DNA of 64,000 bases, taken from NCBI RefSeq assembly GCF_021545845.1, contig NZ_CP088923.1, positions 1,612,001 to 1,676,000 of the forward strand, read 5' to 3'. The stretch is from Rhodanobacter thiooxydans. Lineage in GTDB: Bacteria > Pseudomonadota > Gammaproteobacteria > Xanthomonadales > Rhodanobacteraceae. Below the pieces are notes generated by a model. That model ran no database searches, was not told where the DNA came from, and saw nothing but the letters and a program-made list of their open reading frames with translations. The position numbers were made by a program, and so were the translations under genes. This document shows positions 11,854 through 16,900 of the stretch, in pieces. Every line of letters begins with the position of its first letter. The first letter of the stretch is position 1.

Positions 11854-13728
11854 TCAGTGGCCGGCCAGTTGTGCCGTCACGTCGTTGATCGAATCGCGGA
11901 TGCGCCGGGAGAACACCGAGTCCAGGTGATGGATCAGCAGCAGGTGTTCGGTGGCGCGGGTCATGGCCACGTAGAGCAGACGCGCTTCGTCGTTCTCGCC
12001 CTGGCCTTCCTTGGGCAGGCCGCCGATGCCGGGGATGATCACGAGCGGGAATTCCAGGCCCTTGCTGGAATGCATGGTGACCAGCTTGACGCTGTCCTCC
12101 ACTACGAACAGGGTCTGCTTGCCGGTGTTGTCGGCGAGCCGGCTGGGGATGTCCAGCCCGCGCAGCACCTCGTGCAGCTTTTCGCCTTCCCACTGGTTGC
12201 GGTAGATCACCGCCATCTCGGAATACGGACGGCCATGCGCGTGTTCGTCGCGCAGCCGCGCGATCAGCACGTCCATCTGCGCGCGGGCGGTGTCGGTGCG
12301 TACCAGTTCGGGCACGGCGCCGCGGCGGCCGGCGCTTTCCGGGGCGATCAGCGGCACGCCGTCGCCATCGGCCTCGTCGAGGCGCGAGGCGAGCAGGTCC
12401 TGCGCGAAGGCGCGCGCGACGGAGAGGATTTCCAGCGTGTTGCGGTAGTTGAGCTTGAGGATGGTGGTGCGGCCCTGCGCCTGCACGCCGAGGCTTTTCC
12501 AGCTGATCCTGCGGCGGTTCGGGTTGCCGTAGATGTTCTGCGCGTCGTCGTACAGCACCAGCAGCGAGTTGGTCGCCGGGTCGATCATCTGCACGATCAG
12601 CTTGTACCAGTCCGGCTCGAAGTCGTGGCCTTCGTCGACCAGCACGGCGCCGTACTGGGCGCGCGGAATCTGGCCGCGGTCCACGCCGGCGATCACCGCC
12701 GGCGGCAGCGCGTCGACGAAGGCCTTGCCGCTGCCGGGCGGCAGCGGCTCGTGGTAGGCCACCAGCATCTTGCGGCACCACTTGTGGAAGTTGTAGACCT
12801 GCACCTTCTCGCCGAGGCCGCGCTCGCCGATCAATTGTTCCAGCCGCGCGGCCAGCGTCTTGTTGTAGCAGAGCACCAGGATCGGCTTGTCCATCCCGCG
12901 CGCCAGCTGCATTGCGCGAAAGCCCAGGATCATCGTCTTGCCGGAGCCGGCCACGCCGTGGATGATCCGGTGCTCGTCGCCGATCGAGCGCGCCAGCTGC
13001 TCCTGCTGCGAGTCCATTACCTTGACCAGGTCGGGAATTTCCAGCGGCCGCACCGCCGCGTCGGTGGGGCCGAACAGGCCGAACTGGCCGCTGCCGGCTT
13101 CCACGCGCAATTCCGGGAACAGGTGCCAGCGCACGCGATCGATCTGCGGCAGGGTGAGCGCCACCGGATACACCTGCGGGAACATCGCCCACAGCCGTTG
13201 CTGGAACGCCTCGGCGTCGACCGTCTCGTACAGCTCGTCGCGGCAGATCACCAGGTGTTCGGGCAGCACCTCGCCCAGTGCGCCATCATCGAATTGCTTG
13301 CGGGTGATGTTGGCCAGCACCACGCCCCAGCCCCACGGCATGATCAGCTTGCCGGCATAACGCGAGCCTTCCGGGTGGCGCAGCGCCGGGTCGCGTTCCA
13401 GCACCACGCCGATCTCCAGCGCGTACGCGCGCGCCTGCAGCAGCGGGTTGTTCTCCTTCACCAGGCCGCGTTCGGTGACCAGGGTGAACTGGGTGCTGTC
13501 GGCGTGGCGGAGGGTGTCGGCCTTCCAGTCCTTCACCTCCAGCACCAGCAGGCCGCGGCGCGGGTGGAACACCACGAAGTCTGGATGGCGCTGCTTCACG
13601 CCGACCGGCACGTCGTACCACAGCAGGTAGTCGTCCTCGAGCTTCTGTTCCAGCCGCTCGGAAACGCGTTTCTCGCCGCCGGTCATCCGCGGCAGGCAGC
13701 TGTTGCGGGTCGGAATGAGGGTCGCCAC
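11854..13728 (-). CDS. NERD-domain UvrD/Rep-type DNA helicase
   Basis: A 624-residue protein. The N-terminal nuclease-related domain (NERD) contains PDFVVFHPRRGLLVLEVKDW, with the D...ExK arrangement of PD-(D/E)XK nucleases. It is followed by a superfamily I helicase: Walker A VAGSGKTMILGF, Walker B-like VLVDEGHDFEPDW, LYDDAQNIYG, LNYRNTLEIL, the SSKGLEFPLVIIPG motif and VAMTRATEHLLLI. The GTG start at 13728 has a GAGGA ribosome site. NERD helicases are widespread, of uncertain role (repair or defence). It stands alone between the iron operon and the DUF2236 gene. Confidence 0.87.
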   Translation of the reverse strand: MATLIPTRNSCLPRMTGGEKRVSERLEQKLEDDYLLWYDVPVGVKQRHPDFVVFHPRRGLLVLEVKDWKADTLRHADSTQFTLVTERGLVKENNPLLQARAYALEIGVVLERDPALRHPEGSRYAGKLIMPWGWGVVLANITRKQFDDGALGEVLPEHLVICRDELYETVDAEAFQQRLWAMFPQVYPVALTLPQIDRVRWHLFPELRVEAGSGQFGLFGPTDAAVRPLEIPDLVKVMDSQQEQLARSIGDEHRIIHGVAGSGKTMILGFRAMQLARGMDKPILVLCYNKTLAARLEQLIGERGLGEKVQVYNFHKWCRKMLVAYHEPLPPGSGKAFVDALPPAVIAGVDRGQIPRAQYGAVLVDEGHDFEPDWYKLIVQMIDPATNSLLVLYDDAQNIYGNPNRRRISWKSLGVQAQGRTTILKLNYRNTLEILSVARAFAQDLLASRLDEADGDGVPLIAPESAGRRGAVPELVRTDTARAQMDVLIARLRDEHAHGRPYSEMAVIYRNQWEGEKLHEVLRGLDIPSRLADNTGKQTLFVVEDSVKLVTMHSSKGLEFPLVIIPGIGGLPKEGQGENDEARLLYVAMTRATEHLLLIHHLDSVFSRRIRDSINDVTAQLAGH

Positions 13729-13804
13729 GGAAATCCTCGACTGACGCTGTCGCACGACGTTAGCCGATGGGACGACGCTGTCAATGCCGCTGGACGGCGC
13801 GGCG

Positions 13805-14728
13805 TTACCTCCAGTGCCGCAACTGTTCCGGCGCCCTGTCCATGCGTCGGCAGGCGCGGCTGGCGATGCCGTCCTTCAGCGCAGCATGGAACACCGGCGC
13901 CACCGACCACAGCGCATGCGCCGCCAGTTGCGCCTGGCGGCGTTGCCACGGCGTGTGGCGCAGCAGCGTGAGCGCCCAGTTCGGCAGCAGCGCGTGGCCG
14001 GCGTACAGGAACAGGTCGCGCGACAGCCCGGCCGCCGGCACCGGCAGGCGCACCCGCGCCAGCAGATCGAGCACGACGCGGGAGCGTTCAGTGAAGGCCA
14101 GCTCGGGGCGGATGCGCCGGAAATAATCCGCCACCTCGTGTTCGCTGGCCGGCACGCCGTGGGCGCCCAGCGCCTCGGCGGTCCGTCGCACCTCGTCGTA
14201 GTAGCGGTCGGCCGCGTCTTCCGGCAGTGCCGCATGGCTGTAGCGGCGGTAGCCCTGTAGGAAGCAGTACGCCTCGCTGACGTGCACCCAGGTCAGCAGC
14301 TCGGGATCGTTGGCGCGGTAGGGGCGCCCGTCCTCGCCATGCCCCACGATGTGGTCATGGATCTGCCGCACGTGCTCGATCAGCGCCTCGGCCTGGGCGC
14401 GCGGCGCATAGGTGGTGCCACCGACGAATGCGGTGGTGCGGCGCAGCCGGCCGAGCAGATCGCCGCGGAAATTGGAGTGGTCCCATACCCCGGCCAGCGC
14501 CAGCGGGTGCAGCGCCTGCAGGGTCAGCGCGGCGAGGCCGCCGGCGAGCATGCCGGGGAAGTCCGCATGCACACGCCAGGTCGCGCTGTGCGGCCCGAAC
14601 AGGCCGGGGTCACCGTGCGGGTGGTCGTAGTCGGGGCCTCCATTTTCGGCGCGGGGAAAGGCCTTGAGCACCCAGCGGCGGATCGGTTCGCGGGCGGGTC
14701 GGGTCAGCAGGTCGAGGGGCAATGGCAT
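13805..14728 (-). CDS. Oxygenase MpaB family protein (DUF2236)
   Basis: The 307-residue protein matches the DUF2236 family: conserved WRVHADFPGMLAGGLAALTL, LHPLALAGVWDHSNFRGD, GRLRRTTAFVGGTTYAPR and LTWVHVSEAYCF, with the histidines of the putative haem- or metal-binding four-helix fold. Members include mycobacterial and rubber-degrading latex-clearing oxygenases (Lcp), and MpaB'-type enzymes. A substrate cannot be named. It is transcribed away from the aroG leader; a shared promoter region lies at 14729-14795. Confidence 0.8.
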   Translation of the reverse strand: MPLPLDLLTRPAREPIRRWVLKAFPRAENGGPDYDHPHGDPGLFGPHSATWRVHADFPGMLAGGLAALTLQALHPLALAGVWDHSNFRGDLLGRLRRTTAFVGGTTYAPRAQAEALIEHVRQIHDHIVGHGEDGRPYRANDPELLTWVHVSEAYCFLQGYRRYSHAALPEDAADRYYDEVRRTAEALGAHGVPASEHEVADYFRRIRPELAFTERSRVVLDLLARVRLPVPAAGLSRDLFLYAGHALLPNWALTLLRHTPWQRRQAQLAAHALWSVAPVFHAALKDGIASRACRRMDRAPEQLRHWR

Positions 14729-14760
14729 GCCGCCAGTCTAGCCTTCTGCCGGCGGGGAGT

Positions 14761-14788
14761 TTGATTTGGACGTCCATTGTGTTATCAA
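14761..14788 (+). promoter_or_regulatory. Candidate promoter of the aroG leader
   Basis: TTGATT (14761-14766) and TATCAA (14783-14788) are separated by 16 bp. Transcription would then begin close to the leader-peptide ATG at 14796, making the leader peptide nearly leaderless; no Shine-Dalgarno is visible before that ATG. A promoter further upstream is the alternative. Confidence 0.4.
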
Positions 14789-14795
14789 TGTCGTC

Positions 14796-14879
14796 ATGTC
14801 CTCCATCACCGCCCGCCTGTATTTCTGGTTTTACGGCTACCCGAAGCCAATGGCGGCGGCGCGGACGCGATCGTTTTGA
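14796..14879 (+). CDS. Aromatic-rich leader peptide of DAHP synthase
   Basis: A 27-codon frame encodes MSSITARLYFWFYGYPKPMA and a short basic end. Residues 9-15 read Tyr-Phe-Trp-Phe-Tyr-Gly-Tyr (codons at 14820-14840), six aromatic codons in seven, covering all three end products of the shikimate pathway. An intrinsic terminator follows 22 nt after the stop and a DAHP synthase gene 84 nt after it. This is the classical layout of ribosome-mediated attenuation: starvation for charged tRNA-Phe, Tyr or Trp stalls the ribosome at codons 9-15 and frees the segment at 14851-14856 to form an antiterminator. The peptide is too short to be called by length-based gene finding. Confidence 0.87.
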   Translation: MSSITARLYFWFYGYPKPMAAARTRSF

Positions 14880-14927
14880 ACTGATCGAAAGAACCACACC
14901 GAACCGCCACCACAGGGCGGTTTTTTT
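14808..14927 (+). promoter_or_regulatory. Transcription attenuator upstream of DAHP synthase
   Basis: Four segments can pair in alternation. Segment 1 ACCGCC/CCCGCC (14808-14817) lies within the leader frame just before the aromatic codons. Segment 2 TGGCGGCGGC (14851-14860) follows them. Segment 3 AACCGCCA (14902-14909) pairs either with segment 2 (TGGCGG with CCGCCA, 6 bp) or with segment 4 GGCGGTT (14916-14922). The 3:4 stem is followed by a T tract. The 1:2, 2:3 and 3:4 choices reproduce the trp/phe attenuation logic. Pairings were read by eye; no energies were computed. Confidence 0.78.
14902..14927 (+). terminator. Intrinsic terminator of the aroG attenuator
   Basis: AACCGCC (14902-14908) pairs perfectly with GGCGGTT (14916-14922) around the 7-nt loop ACCACAG, followed directly by TTTTT. 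It stands between the leader peptide and the DAHP synthase gene, so it must be conditional. Confidence 0.88.
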
Positions 14928-14963
14928 ATGGCCGCTACCTGAAAAATCCCCAGGAGAGCCGCC

Positions 14964-16049
14964 ATGCATACCACCGACGACCTGCGCATCCGCGCCTTCA
15001 CCCGCCTCGGCACACCAGCCGAAATCATCCGCGACTGCATGGCCACCGACGCGGCGCTGGCCACCGTGGACGCGTCGCGCCGCGTCCTGCACCGCATCCT
15101 TTCCGGTGACGACGACCGCCTCGCGGTGGTGATCGGCCCGTGCTCGATCCACGACCCGCGCGCCGCGCTGGAATACGCCACGCGGCTGGCGCCGCTGCGC
15201 CGCGCGCTGGGCGATGCGCTGGAGATCGTGATGCGGGTGTACTTCGAGAAGCCGCGCACCACGGTCGGCTGGAAGGGGTTGATCAACGATCCCGACCTCG
15301 ACGGCAGCTTCCAGATCGACAAGGGCCTGCGCATCGCCCGCGGCCTGCTCCGGGACATCAACGTGCTGGGCGTGCCGGCCGGCTGCGAGTTCCTCGATAT
15401 GATCACGCCGCAGTACATCGCCGACCTGGTGGCGTGGGGTGCGATCGGTGCGCGCACCACCGAGAGCCAGGTGCATCGCGAGATGGCCTCGGGGCTGTCC
15501 TGTCCGGTCGGCTTCAAGAACGGCACCGACGGCAACGTGAAGATCGCGGTGGACGCGGTGCAGGCCGCGTCGCAGCCGCACCATTTCATGGCGGTGACCA
15601 AGGACGGCCAGGCCGCCGTGGCGGCGACCAGCGGCAACGGCGACTGCCACGTGATCCTGCGCGGCGGCAAGGCGCCGAACTACGACGCGGCCAGCGTCGA
15701 CGCCGCCTGCGCAGCGATCGGCAAGGCCGGTCTGCGCGCGCAGGTGATGATCGACGCCAGCCACGCCAACAGCAGCAAACAGCCGGAGAATCAGCCGCGA
15801 GTGGTCGGCGACATCGCCGCGCGCATCGCCGCCGGGGAAACGCGCATTCTCGGCGTGATGGTGGAGAGCCACCTGCTCGGCGGCCGCCAGGAGCTGCAGC
15901 CGGGCCAGCCGCTGCGCTACGGCCAGAGCATCACCGACGGCTGTATCGACTGGGACAGCTCGGTGCAGGTGCTGCAGCATCTGGCGCAGGCGGTACGCCA
16001 GCGGCGCCAGGCCGATGCATCCGTGCCCCGTGCGGAGGTTGCCGCCTGA
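14964..16049 (+). CDS. aroG: 3-deoxy-7-phosphoheptulonate synthase (class I, AroF/G/H type)
   Basis: This enzyme condenses phosphoenolpyruvate and erythrose 4-phosphate, the first step of the shikimate pathway. The 361-residue class I enzyme shows VVIGPCSIHDPRAAL, RVYFEKPRTTVGWKG (phosphate and PEP binding), GARTTESQVHREMASGLS and the metal-site DASHANSSKQ. The ATG has an AGGAG ribosome site. Expression is probably controlled by the upstream leader peptide and attenuator. Which aromatic acid inhibits the enzyme itself (AroF, G or H type) cannot be decided from motifs; the leader senses all three. Confidence 0.95.
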   Translation: MHTTDDLRIRAFTRLGTPAEIIRDCMATDAALATVDASRRVLHRILSGDDDRLAVVIGPCSIHDPRAALEYATRLAPLRRALGDALEIVMRVYFEKPRTTVGWKGLINDPDLDGSFQIDKGLRIARGLLRDINVLGVPAGCEFLDMITPQYIADLVAWGAIGARTTESQVHREMASGLSCPVGFKNGTDGNVKIAVDAVQAASQPHHFMAVTKDGQAAVAATSGNGDCHVILRGGKAPNYDAASVDAACAAIGKAGLRAQVMIDASHANSSKQPENQPRVVGDIAARIAAGETRILGVMVESHLLGGRQELQPGQPLRYGQSITDGCIDWDSSVQVLQHLAQAVRQRRQADASVPRAEVAA

Positions 16050-16050
16050 G

Positions 16051-16476
16051 TCAGCTTTCCAGCCGGGCGTCCAGCGTGATCTCGGCCTTCAACAGCTTGG
16101 ACACCGGGCAGCCCAGCTTGGTCGCCTGCGCGATGTTGTCGAACGTGGCCGCGTCGATGCGCGGCACCTTGGCCCGGCAGCTAAGTGCTACCGCGGTGAT
16201 GCTGAAGCCGTCGCCGTCCTTGAGCAGGGTCACCGTTGCCTTGGTGTCGATGCTGTCGGCGGTGAAGCCGGCCTTGCCCAGCTCCAGCGACAGCGCCATC
16301 GAGTAGCAGCCGGCATGGGCCGCGGCGATCAATTCCTCCGGGTTGGTGCCGGGTCCGTCCTCGAAACGCGACTTGAAGCCGTACGGCGCCTCGCGCAGCA
16401 CGTCGGTATCGGTCGACATCGTGCCCTGGCCGTCCTTGATGCCGCCGGACCAATGCGCGGACGCGGATCGTTTCAT
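16051..16476 (-). CDS. osmC: OsmC family peroxiredoxin
   Basis: OsmC proteins reduce organic hydroperoxides with two cysteines. The 141-residue protein has the first catalytic cysteine in AAHAGCYSMALSLEL and the second in KLGCPVSKLLKAE, plus the conserved Arg/Glu context (NPEELIAAAHAG). The ATG at 16476 carries a good site (GGGAGA); the frame continues upstream but that extension is Arg/Cys-rich with no domain similarity. It is convergent with the aroG gene, with only one base between the stop codons. OsmC rather than Ohr fits the N-terminal ASAHWSGGIKDG segment. Confidence 0.9.
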   Translation of the reverse strand: MKRSASAHWSGGIKDGQGTMSTDTDVLREAPYGFKSRFEDGPGTNPEELIAAAHAGCYSMALSLELGKAGFTADSIDTKATVTLLKDGDGFSITAVALSCRAKVPRIDAATFDNIAQATKLGCPVSKLLKAEITLDARLES

Positions 16477-16624
16477 GGGATTCTCCCGTGGGTTGTGGCA
16501 GGCAGGTACCCACGATGCCCGATGCCGCATGCAGCCGGCGCGAACGAAGCGACGCCATCGCTTCACGCCCGGTTGCCACGCACAGGTCGTATCCTTGTCG
16601 ACTGCCTTTCCGGAGGAAGTTCGC

Positions 16625-16900
16625 ATGCCGTTCGCCATTCAGCACGATCGCCTTGCCCATCGCTTCGAAACCCGCGTGGATGGCGAGCTATGCCTGCTCG
16701 ATTACACCCTGGCCACCGGCGTGATGACGATCACCCGTACGGAAGTGCCAGCCGTGGTGGGCGGGCGCGGCATCGCCGCTGCCCTGGTGCAGGAGGCGCT
16801 GGCGGCGGCGCGCGCCGAAGGCTGGAAGGTGGTGCCGGCCTGCTCGTATGCTGCCGCGTGGATGCAGCGGCATCCGGCATACCACGACCTGCTCGGCTGA
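16625..16900 (+). CDS. Small GNAT-type N-acetyltransferase (YjdJ-like)
   Basis: A 91-residue protein of the short GCN5-related group. The acetyl-CoA loop is VVGGRGIAAALVQEAL, and the C-terminal block VPACSYAAAWMQRHPAYHDLL is typical of the YjdJ family (human NATD1-like). The ATG at 16625 has a strong GGAGGAA site; an upstream in-frame extension would run antisense through the osmC gene. Substrate unknown. Confidence 0.85.
   Translation: MPFAIQHDRLAHRFETRVDGELCLLDYTLATGVMTITRTEVPAVVGGRGIAAALVQEALAAARAEGWKVVPACSYAAAWMQRHPAYHDLLG

Follow-up and report, generated by a model that had tools for sequence, protein, structure and literature searches.

Locus organization

In the 4.2-Mb genome of Rhodanobacter thiooxydans, a tiny open reading frame (ORF) with a run of aromatic codons and an intrinsic terminator precede aroG. 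All coordinates refer to the window, the whole stretch of 64,000 nucleotides that was analysed, and the features are collected in Table 1. The aroG product is 98% identical to AroG of R. thiooxydans strain LCS2, and the solved structures nearest to it by sequence are DAHP synthetase and Phe-regulated DAHP synthase chains (e.g. 1n8f and 1gg1). The gene is flanked by one divergent and one convergent gene. As the upstream gene is divergent, the terminator before aroG can act only on transcripts initiated between that gene and the leader; assignment of the terminator to the MPAB/Lcp-type gene itself was rejected for its divergent orientation. A NERD-domain UvrD-like helicase protein is encoded near the locus at 11854–13755 (minus strand). 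Among the related loci, a glycine riboswitch lies near aroG of [Pseudomonas] boreopolis (L017:4436–4526, minus strand).

Table 1. Features of the aroG locus and its leader in window coordinates
Feature	Position	Strand	Basis or remark
Upstream neighbour, MPAB/Lcp-type oxygenase domain	13805–14728	opposite	Reads away from aroG
−35-like TTGATT, 16 nt before −10	14761–14766	+	Sequence
Extended −10 TGTTATCAA	14780–14788	+	Predicted transcription start ~14795
Leader peptide ORF MSSITARLYFWFYGYPKPMAAARTRSF, no Shine–Dalgarno	14796–14879	+	ATG 14796, stop 14877–14879, 27 codons
Segment 1, pairs with segment 2 (protector hairpin)	14808–14817	+	Window fold; weakly conserved
Aromatic control codons Tyr-Phe-Trp-Phe-Tyr-Gly-Tyr, codons 9–15	14820–14840	+	Sequence, conservation
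Segment 2, antiterminator 5' arm	14851–14860	+	Core GGCGG 14852–14856, leader codons 19–21
Segment 3, common to antiterminator and terminator	14902–14909	+	Core CCGCC 14904–14908
Segment 4, terminator 3' arm	14916–14922	+	Core GGCGG 14916–14920
T tract of intrinsic terminator	14921–14927	+	Sequence, terminator scan
aroG ribosome binding site AGGAG	14952–14956	+	aroG ATG at 14964
aroG, type I DAHP synthase, 361 aa	14964–16049	+	TIGR00034 / PF00793
Downstream neighbour, OsmC	16051–16638		Reads towards aroG

The 27-codon frame with its YFWFYGY block, proposed in an initial annotation of this DNA, was read in the sequence at exactly these coordinates, as were the alternating complementary segments and the terminator with its T tract; no Shine–Dalgarno-like sequence is present before the leader ATG, as had also been noted.

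Aromatic ORF upstream of aroG

The chance occurrence of such an ORF was assessed over the 420 nt upstream of the 206 aroG loci with enough sequence. An ATG ORF of 9–50 aa with at least six F/Y/W in nine residues was found at 159 of these loci; among dinucleotide shuffles, 2 of 4120 had one. Searched as DNA, the pattern [FY][FY]W[FY][FY] has a single occurrence in the 4.2-Mb genome, which is the aroG leader; its backwards control occurs once on each strand. The leader peptide had no match in NCBIfam. Rfam gave no match in the window at gathering score, no leader family over 14700–14980 at E ≤ 10 and no leader-family match at the aroG leader in ten related loci.

Distribution of the leader

In total, 208 type I aroG loci were compared. 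Of these, 128 belong to genomes of the same family and order and 80, the best of at least 592, to named genomes; some loci may be counted twice because the same genome may stand in both sets. A leader was accepted with at least four F/Y/W in nine residues, a filter that 155 of 4120 ATG-only shuffles also pass. It is present at 187 of the 208 loci (a sample that includes the best 80 of at least 592) and absent at 21, a number that counts loci with too-short upstream sequence (L058 has 52 nt only). Five leaders start with GTG (L051, L175, L197, L204 and L207), two of which, L175 and L197, were set as leaders by eye; L201 is ambiguous. Two enterobacterial loci, L070 and L074, pass the loose filter and have no terminator in the scan, and were counted as lacking the leader. 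The ORF at L074 (Entomohabitans), MACFFWFSGLFRKAVK, lies about 130 nt before aroG and is probably due to chance.

Among Xanthomonadales, 135 of 136 type I aroG loci carry the leader. The sequence before the one aroG of the 136 without the leader (L098, genome G136) seems unrelated, as might be expected of a gene relocated without its attenuator. Further carriers are found in Burkholderiales and Rhizobiales (Bradyrhizobium, Mesorhizobium and Devosia). The loci without it are, among others, those of Enterobacterales, Methylotenera, Ferrovum, Azoarcus and Thauera. Mapped on a tree of 89 AroG proteins, presence of the leader requires six changes; none of 500 label shuffles gave so low a number. 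In this tree 16 alphaproteobacterial rows group with 17 Xanthomonadales rows (support 100/99), which suggests that gene and leader moved together between classes.

A covariance model (R1) was built from 59 of 171 distinct leader-to-terminator sequences, picked for diversity. In 250 genomes of the same order, strong full-length matches (E ≤ 1.1e-16) were found in 64, which are 64 of the 65 genomes with type I aroG (the missing one being G136) and none of the 185 without; the next best match in the order is partial (4.8e-5). As many of the matched sequences or their kin are in R1, what is informative in this result is the lack of strong matches in the other genomes. Matches at E ≤ 1e-3 were found in 101 of 398 genomes of the phylum, many being short and limited to the terminator. 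The best 30 phylum loci (L236–L265) and two from the order search all lie beside an AroG gene (32/32). Of the next 21 matches 18 precede AroG (17/20, plus G792), and the remaining three precede pheA (two) and pheS (one), confirmed by Pfam, and are ordinary Phe leaders. R1 also recovers leader types outside the 59, e.g. MSALRAYFFAYFWFPVSGGREASA. Ten aroG leaders with another C-terminal half (e.g. FWFSVPGGREASA; L274, L276, L277, L279–L283, L286 and L294) were found by R1 only and are, at a guess, Comamonadaceae-like. Behind one Phe-rich leader, the C-terminus (residues 424–490) of the pheA product at L278:350–1831 (plus strand) additionally gives a partial match to DAHP synthase I; the examined stretch ends there.

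Alternative RNA structures

The terminator hairpin at 14901–14923 with its T tract was the sole hairpin returned by the terminator scan (0.2 expected). The fold of the whole region is only mildly unusual (z of −1.85 and −1.93 in two runs), and the case therefore rests on conservation. Without segment 1, 14841–14912 folds as the antiterminator at −23.2 kcal/mol (z −2.0; reached by 4 of 200 shuffles), as does 14848–14927 (z −0.96); for the full leader, the minimum structure is mixed and the centroid bears the terminator. Pairing of 14808–14817 with 14851–14860, two of the complementary segments noted initially, is present in the fold of the window, yet no other pairing is less conserved: over 170 distinct loci this protector pairing has a mean z of 0.98, with 72% above their own shuffle mean.

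The pairings of segment 3 with segments 2 and 4, in contrast, are kept in relatives. With the register chosen by pairing, 180 of 186 loci have the whole five-position core of segment 2 paired with segment 3, and the other six have four of the five positions paired; the core counts cover 186 of the 187 leaders, L078 being left out since its terminator arm reads GGCG and the scan needs GGCGG or AGCGG. Flanking 2:3 pairs average 2.07, compared with 1.74 (sd 0.06, maximum 1.94) in 2000 re-pairings of 124 distinct triples, a test in which relatedness was not controlled. At L060, L176 and L178 the antiterminator and terminator cores are altered (a ACCGCTAAT hairpin; GCGGCTY with GGGCCGC) and the partners are still partly complementary.

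Covariation was tested on an alignment (A1) of 59 sequences. The terminator is paired in 94.7% of cells and has 33 cells changed on both sides, with none of 500 shuffles as high; RNAalifold on A1 predicts the terminator alone. The antiterminator is paired in 76% of cells, compared with 17–44% when slid, and has 15 two-sided cells (1 of 500 shuffles as high). Its covariation score was reached by 13 of 500 shuffles, the number of its pairs with two-sided change was matched by 154 of 500 and that of further pair types by 342 of 500. Compensatory change in the stems, which the initial annotation had suggested looking for, is thus clear for the terminator and modest for the antiterminator, as the core of the latter hardly varies.

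Selection on the peptide and on the RNA

Codon choice varies among the 101 distinct aromatic runs (TAT 132, TAC 132, TTT 212, TTC 60, TGG 86), and the residues stay aromatic. Phe and Tyr are swapped between relatives (e.g. YFWFYGY and FYFWYYGF), and Trp is retained in Xanthomonadales. The codons also differ from those of aroG, as compared at the 107 loci where 900 nt or more of that gene are available: among Phe codons the share of TTT is 80% in the run as against 12% in aroG, and TAT makes up 56% and 27%, respectively, of Tyr codons.

After the run it is the letters that are kept. Codons were replaced by random synonyms drawn from aroG codon usage; the exact complement of the segment 3 core follows the run in 128 of 136 distinct leaders, and 45.4 (sd about 5.0) are expected from this recoding. 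At a gap of 8 or 11 nt the complement occurs in 95 leaders, against 27.1 expected. Codon counts anchored on the pairing (third-position G 68/68; GCG 67/68) are circular and were not used. The count was instead anchored on the peptide, by an Ala at residue 3–7 after the run, which is found in 122 of 132 distinct leaders: the codon before this Ala ends in G in 116 of the 122 and the Ala codon is GCG in 118. The residue before the Ala is of ten kinds (L, P, Q, T, K, M, S, R, E and W), and in aroG of the same loci 36% of codons end in G and 40% of Ala codons are GCG. With residues kept in the run and letters kept after it, selection acts on the peptide within the run and on the RNA letters GGCGG beyond it.

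These results bear on the simplest alternative, a chance ORF before an ordinary terminator-containing 5' region. A single-window folding z of only about −1.9 would suit it, but the aromatic density that shuffles reach twice in 4120, the recoding test and the conservation over Alpha-, Beta- and Gammaproteobacteria contradict it, and it was rejected as wholly improbable. A leader-peptide attenuator of DAHP synthase, as first proposed, is supported by the distribution of the leader (187/208 loci) and by the recoding test (128/136 against 45 expected).

Spacing of codons, segments and stop codon

In 121 of 186 loci, 11 nt separate the last aromatic codon from the segment 2 core; the gap measures 8 nt in another 23 loci and 17 nt in 18. 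By toeprinting, a ribosome with its A site on a codon covers about 9–10 nt beyond that codon. With a footprint of this size, stalls within the aromatic run would leave the core free and stalls at later codons would cover it; with the control codons placed in this way, segment 2 would stay available when a ribosome stalls at them.

In 129 of 186 loci the stop codon begins 25 nt beyond the start of the core, and the starts of the segment 2 and segment 3 cores are a median of 55 nt apart. By these spacings, a ribosome that has reached the stop codon would sit past segment 2 and short of segment 3. In the E. coli trp leader the ribosome at the stop codon masks segment 2; this geometry is not found at the aroG leader, the stop codon of which lies 3' of segment 2. 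Such masking is a feature of trp and not of every attenuator.

Promoter and translation start

The motif [GA]TGNTAT, with TAT 12–15 nt before the leader start codon, was found in 110 of 124 distinct Xanthomonadales sequences, compared with 38 of 6200 mononucleotide shuffles, and TTG stands at −35 distance in 92 of the 110. A consensus promoter scan that required at least 9 of 12 matches gave nothing at threshold before the leader. The spacing of the −10 motif, taken with the usual distance from −10 to start, places the predicted transcription start 0–4 nt before the leader ATG.

Shine–Dalgarno-like 4-mers at −20 to −5 of the leader were found in none of the 124 distinct Xanthomonadales sequences, none of 16 alphaproteobacterial sequences and 1 of 33 sequences from Burkholderiales and others; near the start of aroG itself they were found at 163 of 186 loci. 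The leaderless start that the initial annotation had considered possible is, given the −10 position in the 110 sequences, probable: the leader is probably translated from an mRNA that begins at or close to its AUG.

In 14 of the 16 alphaproteobacterial sequences a loose motif, [TC]GAC[AT]-N15-19-TWNWN, ends 7–12 nt before the start codon, a count without a shuffle control. Among the 33 sequences of Burkholderiales and others, a TA[TC][ACT]A[ATG] box 41–45 nt upstream of the leader gave 12 matches; with the box at this distance the leaders of this group are not leaderless by the box criterion, and a Shine–Dalgarno site is absent nonetheless. Four Burkholderia-type loci (L036, L040, L041 and L045) have a TATAAA box about 43 nt upstream, a T-rich stretch and no Shine–Dalgarno sequence. 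Judged by these sequences, leaders of this type may use another mode of initiation.

DAHP synthase isozymes

The R. thiooxydans genome encodes a second DAHP synthase, of type II. Its likely ATG is at L083:1462 and the preceding ORF, dsbB-like by eye, ends at 1432, so there is no room for a leader. No aromatic-rich leader was found before the type II gene, trpE or pheA of this genome. In the family, type II is present in 193 of 197 genomes (166 of the 166 of good quality) and type I aroG in 91 of 197. The leader thus apparently controls one isozyme of a pair in R. thiooxydans, the optional one, and the earlier proposal that it replaces a multi-isozyme scheme finds no support there, as the type II enzyme is present.

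The named loci come from 39 genomes, 30 of them with a leader-bearing aroG. Type II was found in 11, which are the 11 alphaproteobacterial ones. Of the other 19 leader-bearing genomes, 14 have at least two type I genes (E ≤ 1e-60). In five of the 30 (L015, L048, L055, L056 and L061) the leader-bearing gene is the sole DAHP synthase found; some of these are metagenome bins, so absence of a second enzyme is not proven in the five. The proposal that the leader replaces isozyme-specific control may still hold for these five. Among 23 further type I genes examined in the genomes, 22 have no aromatic leader. The exception, G422:C10, comes from a metagenome bin of Devosia, where it is the second copy of this AroG type (70% identical to the query).

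Proposed mechanism

The element is very probably a ribosome-mediated transcription attenuator of aroG. From the arrangement described above we infer a course of events that runs from transcription start through translation and stalling to a response to each amino acid. RNA polymerase would start at about 14795, so that the leader mRNA begins at the leader AUG or a few bases from it, and ribosomes would load without a Shine–Dalgarno site. Were charged tRNA-Tyr, tRNA-Phe or tRNA-Trp in short supply, the ribosome would stall in codons 9–15, covering segment 1 with its front edge short of the segment 2 core, which begins 11 nt past the last aromatic codon. Segments 2 and 3 would then pair, the terminator would be blocked and aroG would be transcribed. 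With all three amino acids plentiful, the ribosome would run through segment 2 to the stop codon and sit there between segments 2 and 3; segment 1 could re-pair with segment 2, segments 3 and 4 would form the terminator, and transcription would end at about 14927. The switch would tune the type I DAHP synthase, and the type II enzyme, which has no leader, would supply the base flow in this genome.

The inputs were considered from the composition of the leaders. W, F and Y are all present in 135 of 135 Xanthomonadales leaders, so that the aromatic run of the initial annotation is kept in relatives, and in 15 of 16 alphaproteobacterial leaders. All three occur in 14 of 35 leaders from Burkholderiales and others, and in none of 12 Oxalobacteraceae-like leaders, which have F and Y only (Trp absent in 12/12). 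Sensing of all three amino acids is plausible for the Xanthomonadales, and the codon patterns point to pooled sensing of Phe and Tyr with a separate Trp input where the leader has Trp. In the same attenuator only one or two of the amino acids might matter, with the other aromatics as tolerated look-alikes, an alternative that we consider tentatively. It would agree with the loss of Trp from the 12 Oxalobacteraceae-like leaders and from 20 of the 35 leaders from Burkholderiales and others, and with the aroR leader of Corynebacterium glutamicum (Phe-Tyr-Phe), said in review passages to answer Phe and not Tyr; it sits poorly with Trp, which has a single codon, being kept in 135/135 Xanthomonadales and 15/16 alphaproteobacterial leaders, since a non-functional TGG should drift.

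A further and unlikely alternative is that the leader mainly gauges how fast translation runs in general, or that its terminated small RNA or its peptide acts in trans, like rnTrpL and peTrpL of Sinorhizobium. The terminated aroG leader transcript is predicted to be about 132 nt long, and trans-acting products are described for the leaderless trp attenuator of S. meliloti in the accessible portions of PMC7298713 and PMC10117765. Strict linkage to one gene (64/65 genomes with aroG, 0/185 without) and the aromatic composition speak for a role in cis, with which a trans role would be compatible.

With some reserve, we favour regarding the element as an undescribed attenuator family of Alpha-, Beta- and Gammaproteobacteria in which one leader would act as an OR gate for Tyr, Phe and Trp, a stall at any of the codons leaving the antiterminator core free. 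It would be leaderless in Xanthomonadales and Rhizobiales, and in R. thiooxydans would make one DAHP synthase of the pair starvation-induced, with trpE and pheA free of an aromatic leader. If this is true, it would provide a control of aromatic biosynthesis for Xanthomonadales, Burkholderiales and rhizobia, none such having been reported in the literature searched. The leader would be a natural three-input sensor with visibly evolving inputs (Trp present or absent by lineage), in a family where leaderless initiation and attenuation seem coupled. The element also suggests that, among several isozymes, a leader can single out the one that is regulated.

Comparison with known systems

An earlier report of a proteobacterial aroG attenuator was not found in the literature searched, although an earlier mention is possible; six leader peptide words, searched as literature text, gave no match. 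Such an element is not mentioned in the portions available of PMC2965389, PMC1262725, PMC5343134 and PMC1183508. Attenuators have been predicted before aroF in Shewanella (listed as sensing Tyr-tRNA; PMC2659441) and before aroF-tyrA in Vibrio (PMC1173090). As far as these partial descriptions go, they share a DAHP synthase gene with the present leader and are predictions.

The aroR-aroF attenuator of C. glutamicum was reportedly treated by Neshat and coworkers in 2014. According to partial text of PMC4046766 and PMC11802643, leader-peptide attenuation of DAHP synthase operates there. Compared by description, the two are alike in having a leader peptide before one of the cell's two DAHP synthases and in acting by transcription attenuation; the C. 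glutamicum system differs in its Phe-Tyr-Phe leader, said to answer Phe, and in belonging to Actinobacteria. For leaderless initiation, extracts of PMC7298713 and PMC10117765 give trpL of S. meliloti as established, its ORF beginning with the RNA 5' end; for Streptomyces, passages of PMC8079986 describe leaderless leaders.

The leaders of pheA and pheST likewise combine an aromatic-rich peptide with a terminator, and the three weaker R1 matches are of that kind; in contrast to the aroG leader they are Phe-rich, lack a Tyr-Trp block and serve other genes. These leaders are named pheL and pheM. The trp attenuators (E. coli trpL and S. meliloti trpL) follow the same logic of segments 1–4, but sense Trp alone and target trpE. 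In the ilvGMEDA and thr leaders, too, a single leader carries codons for more than one end product of a pathway; they differ from the aroG leader in that they belong to the branched-chain and threonine pathways.
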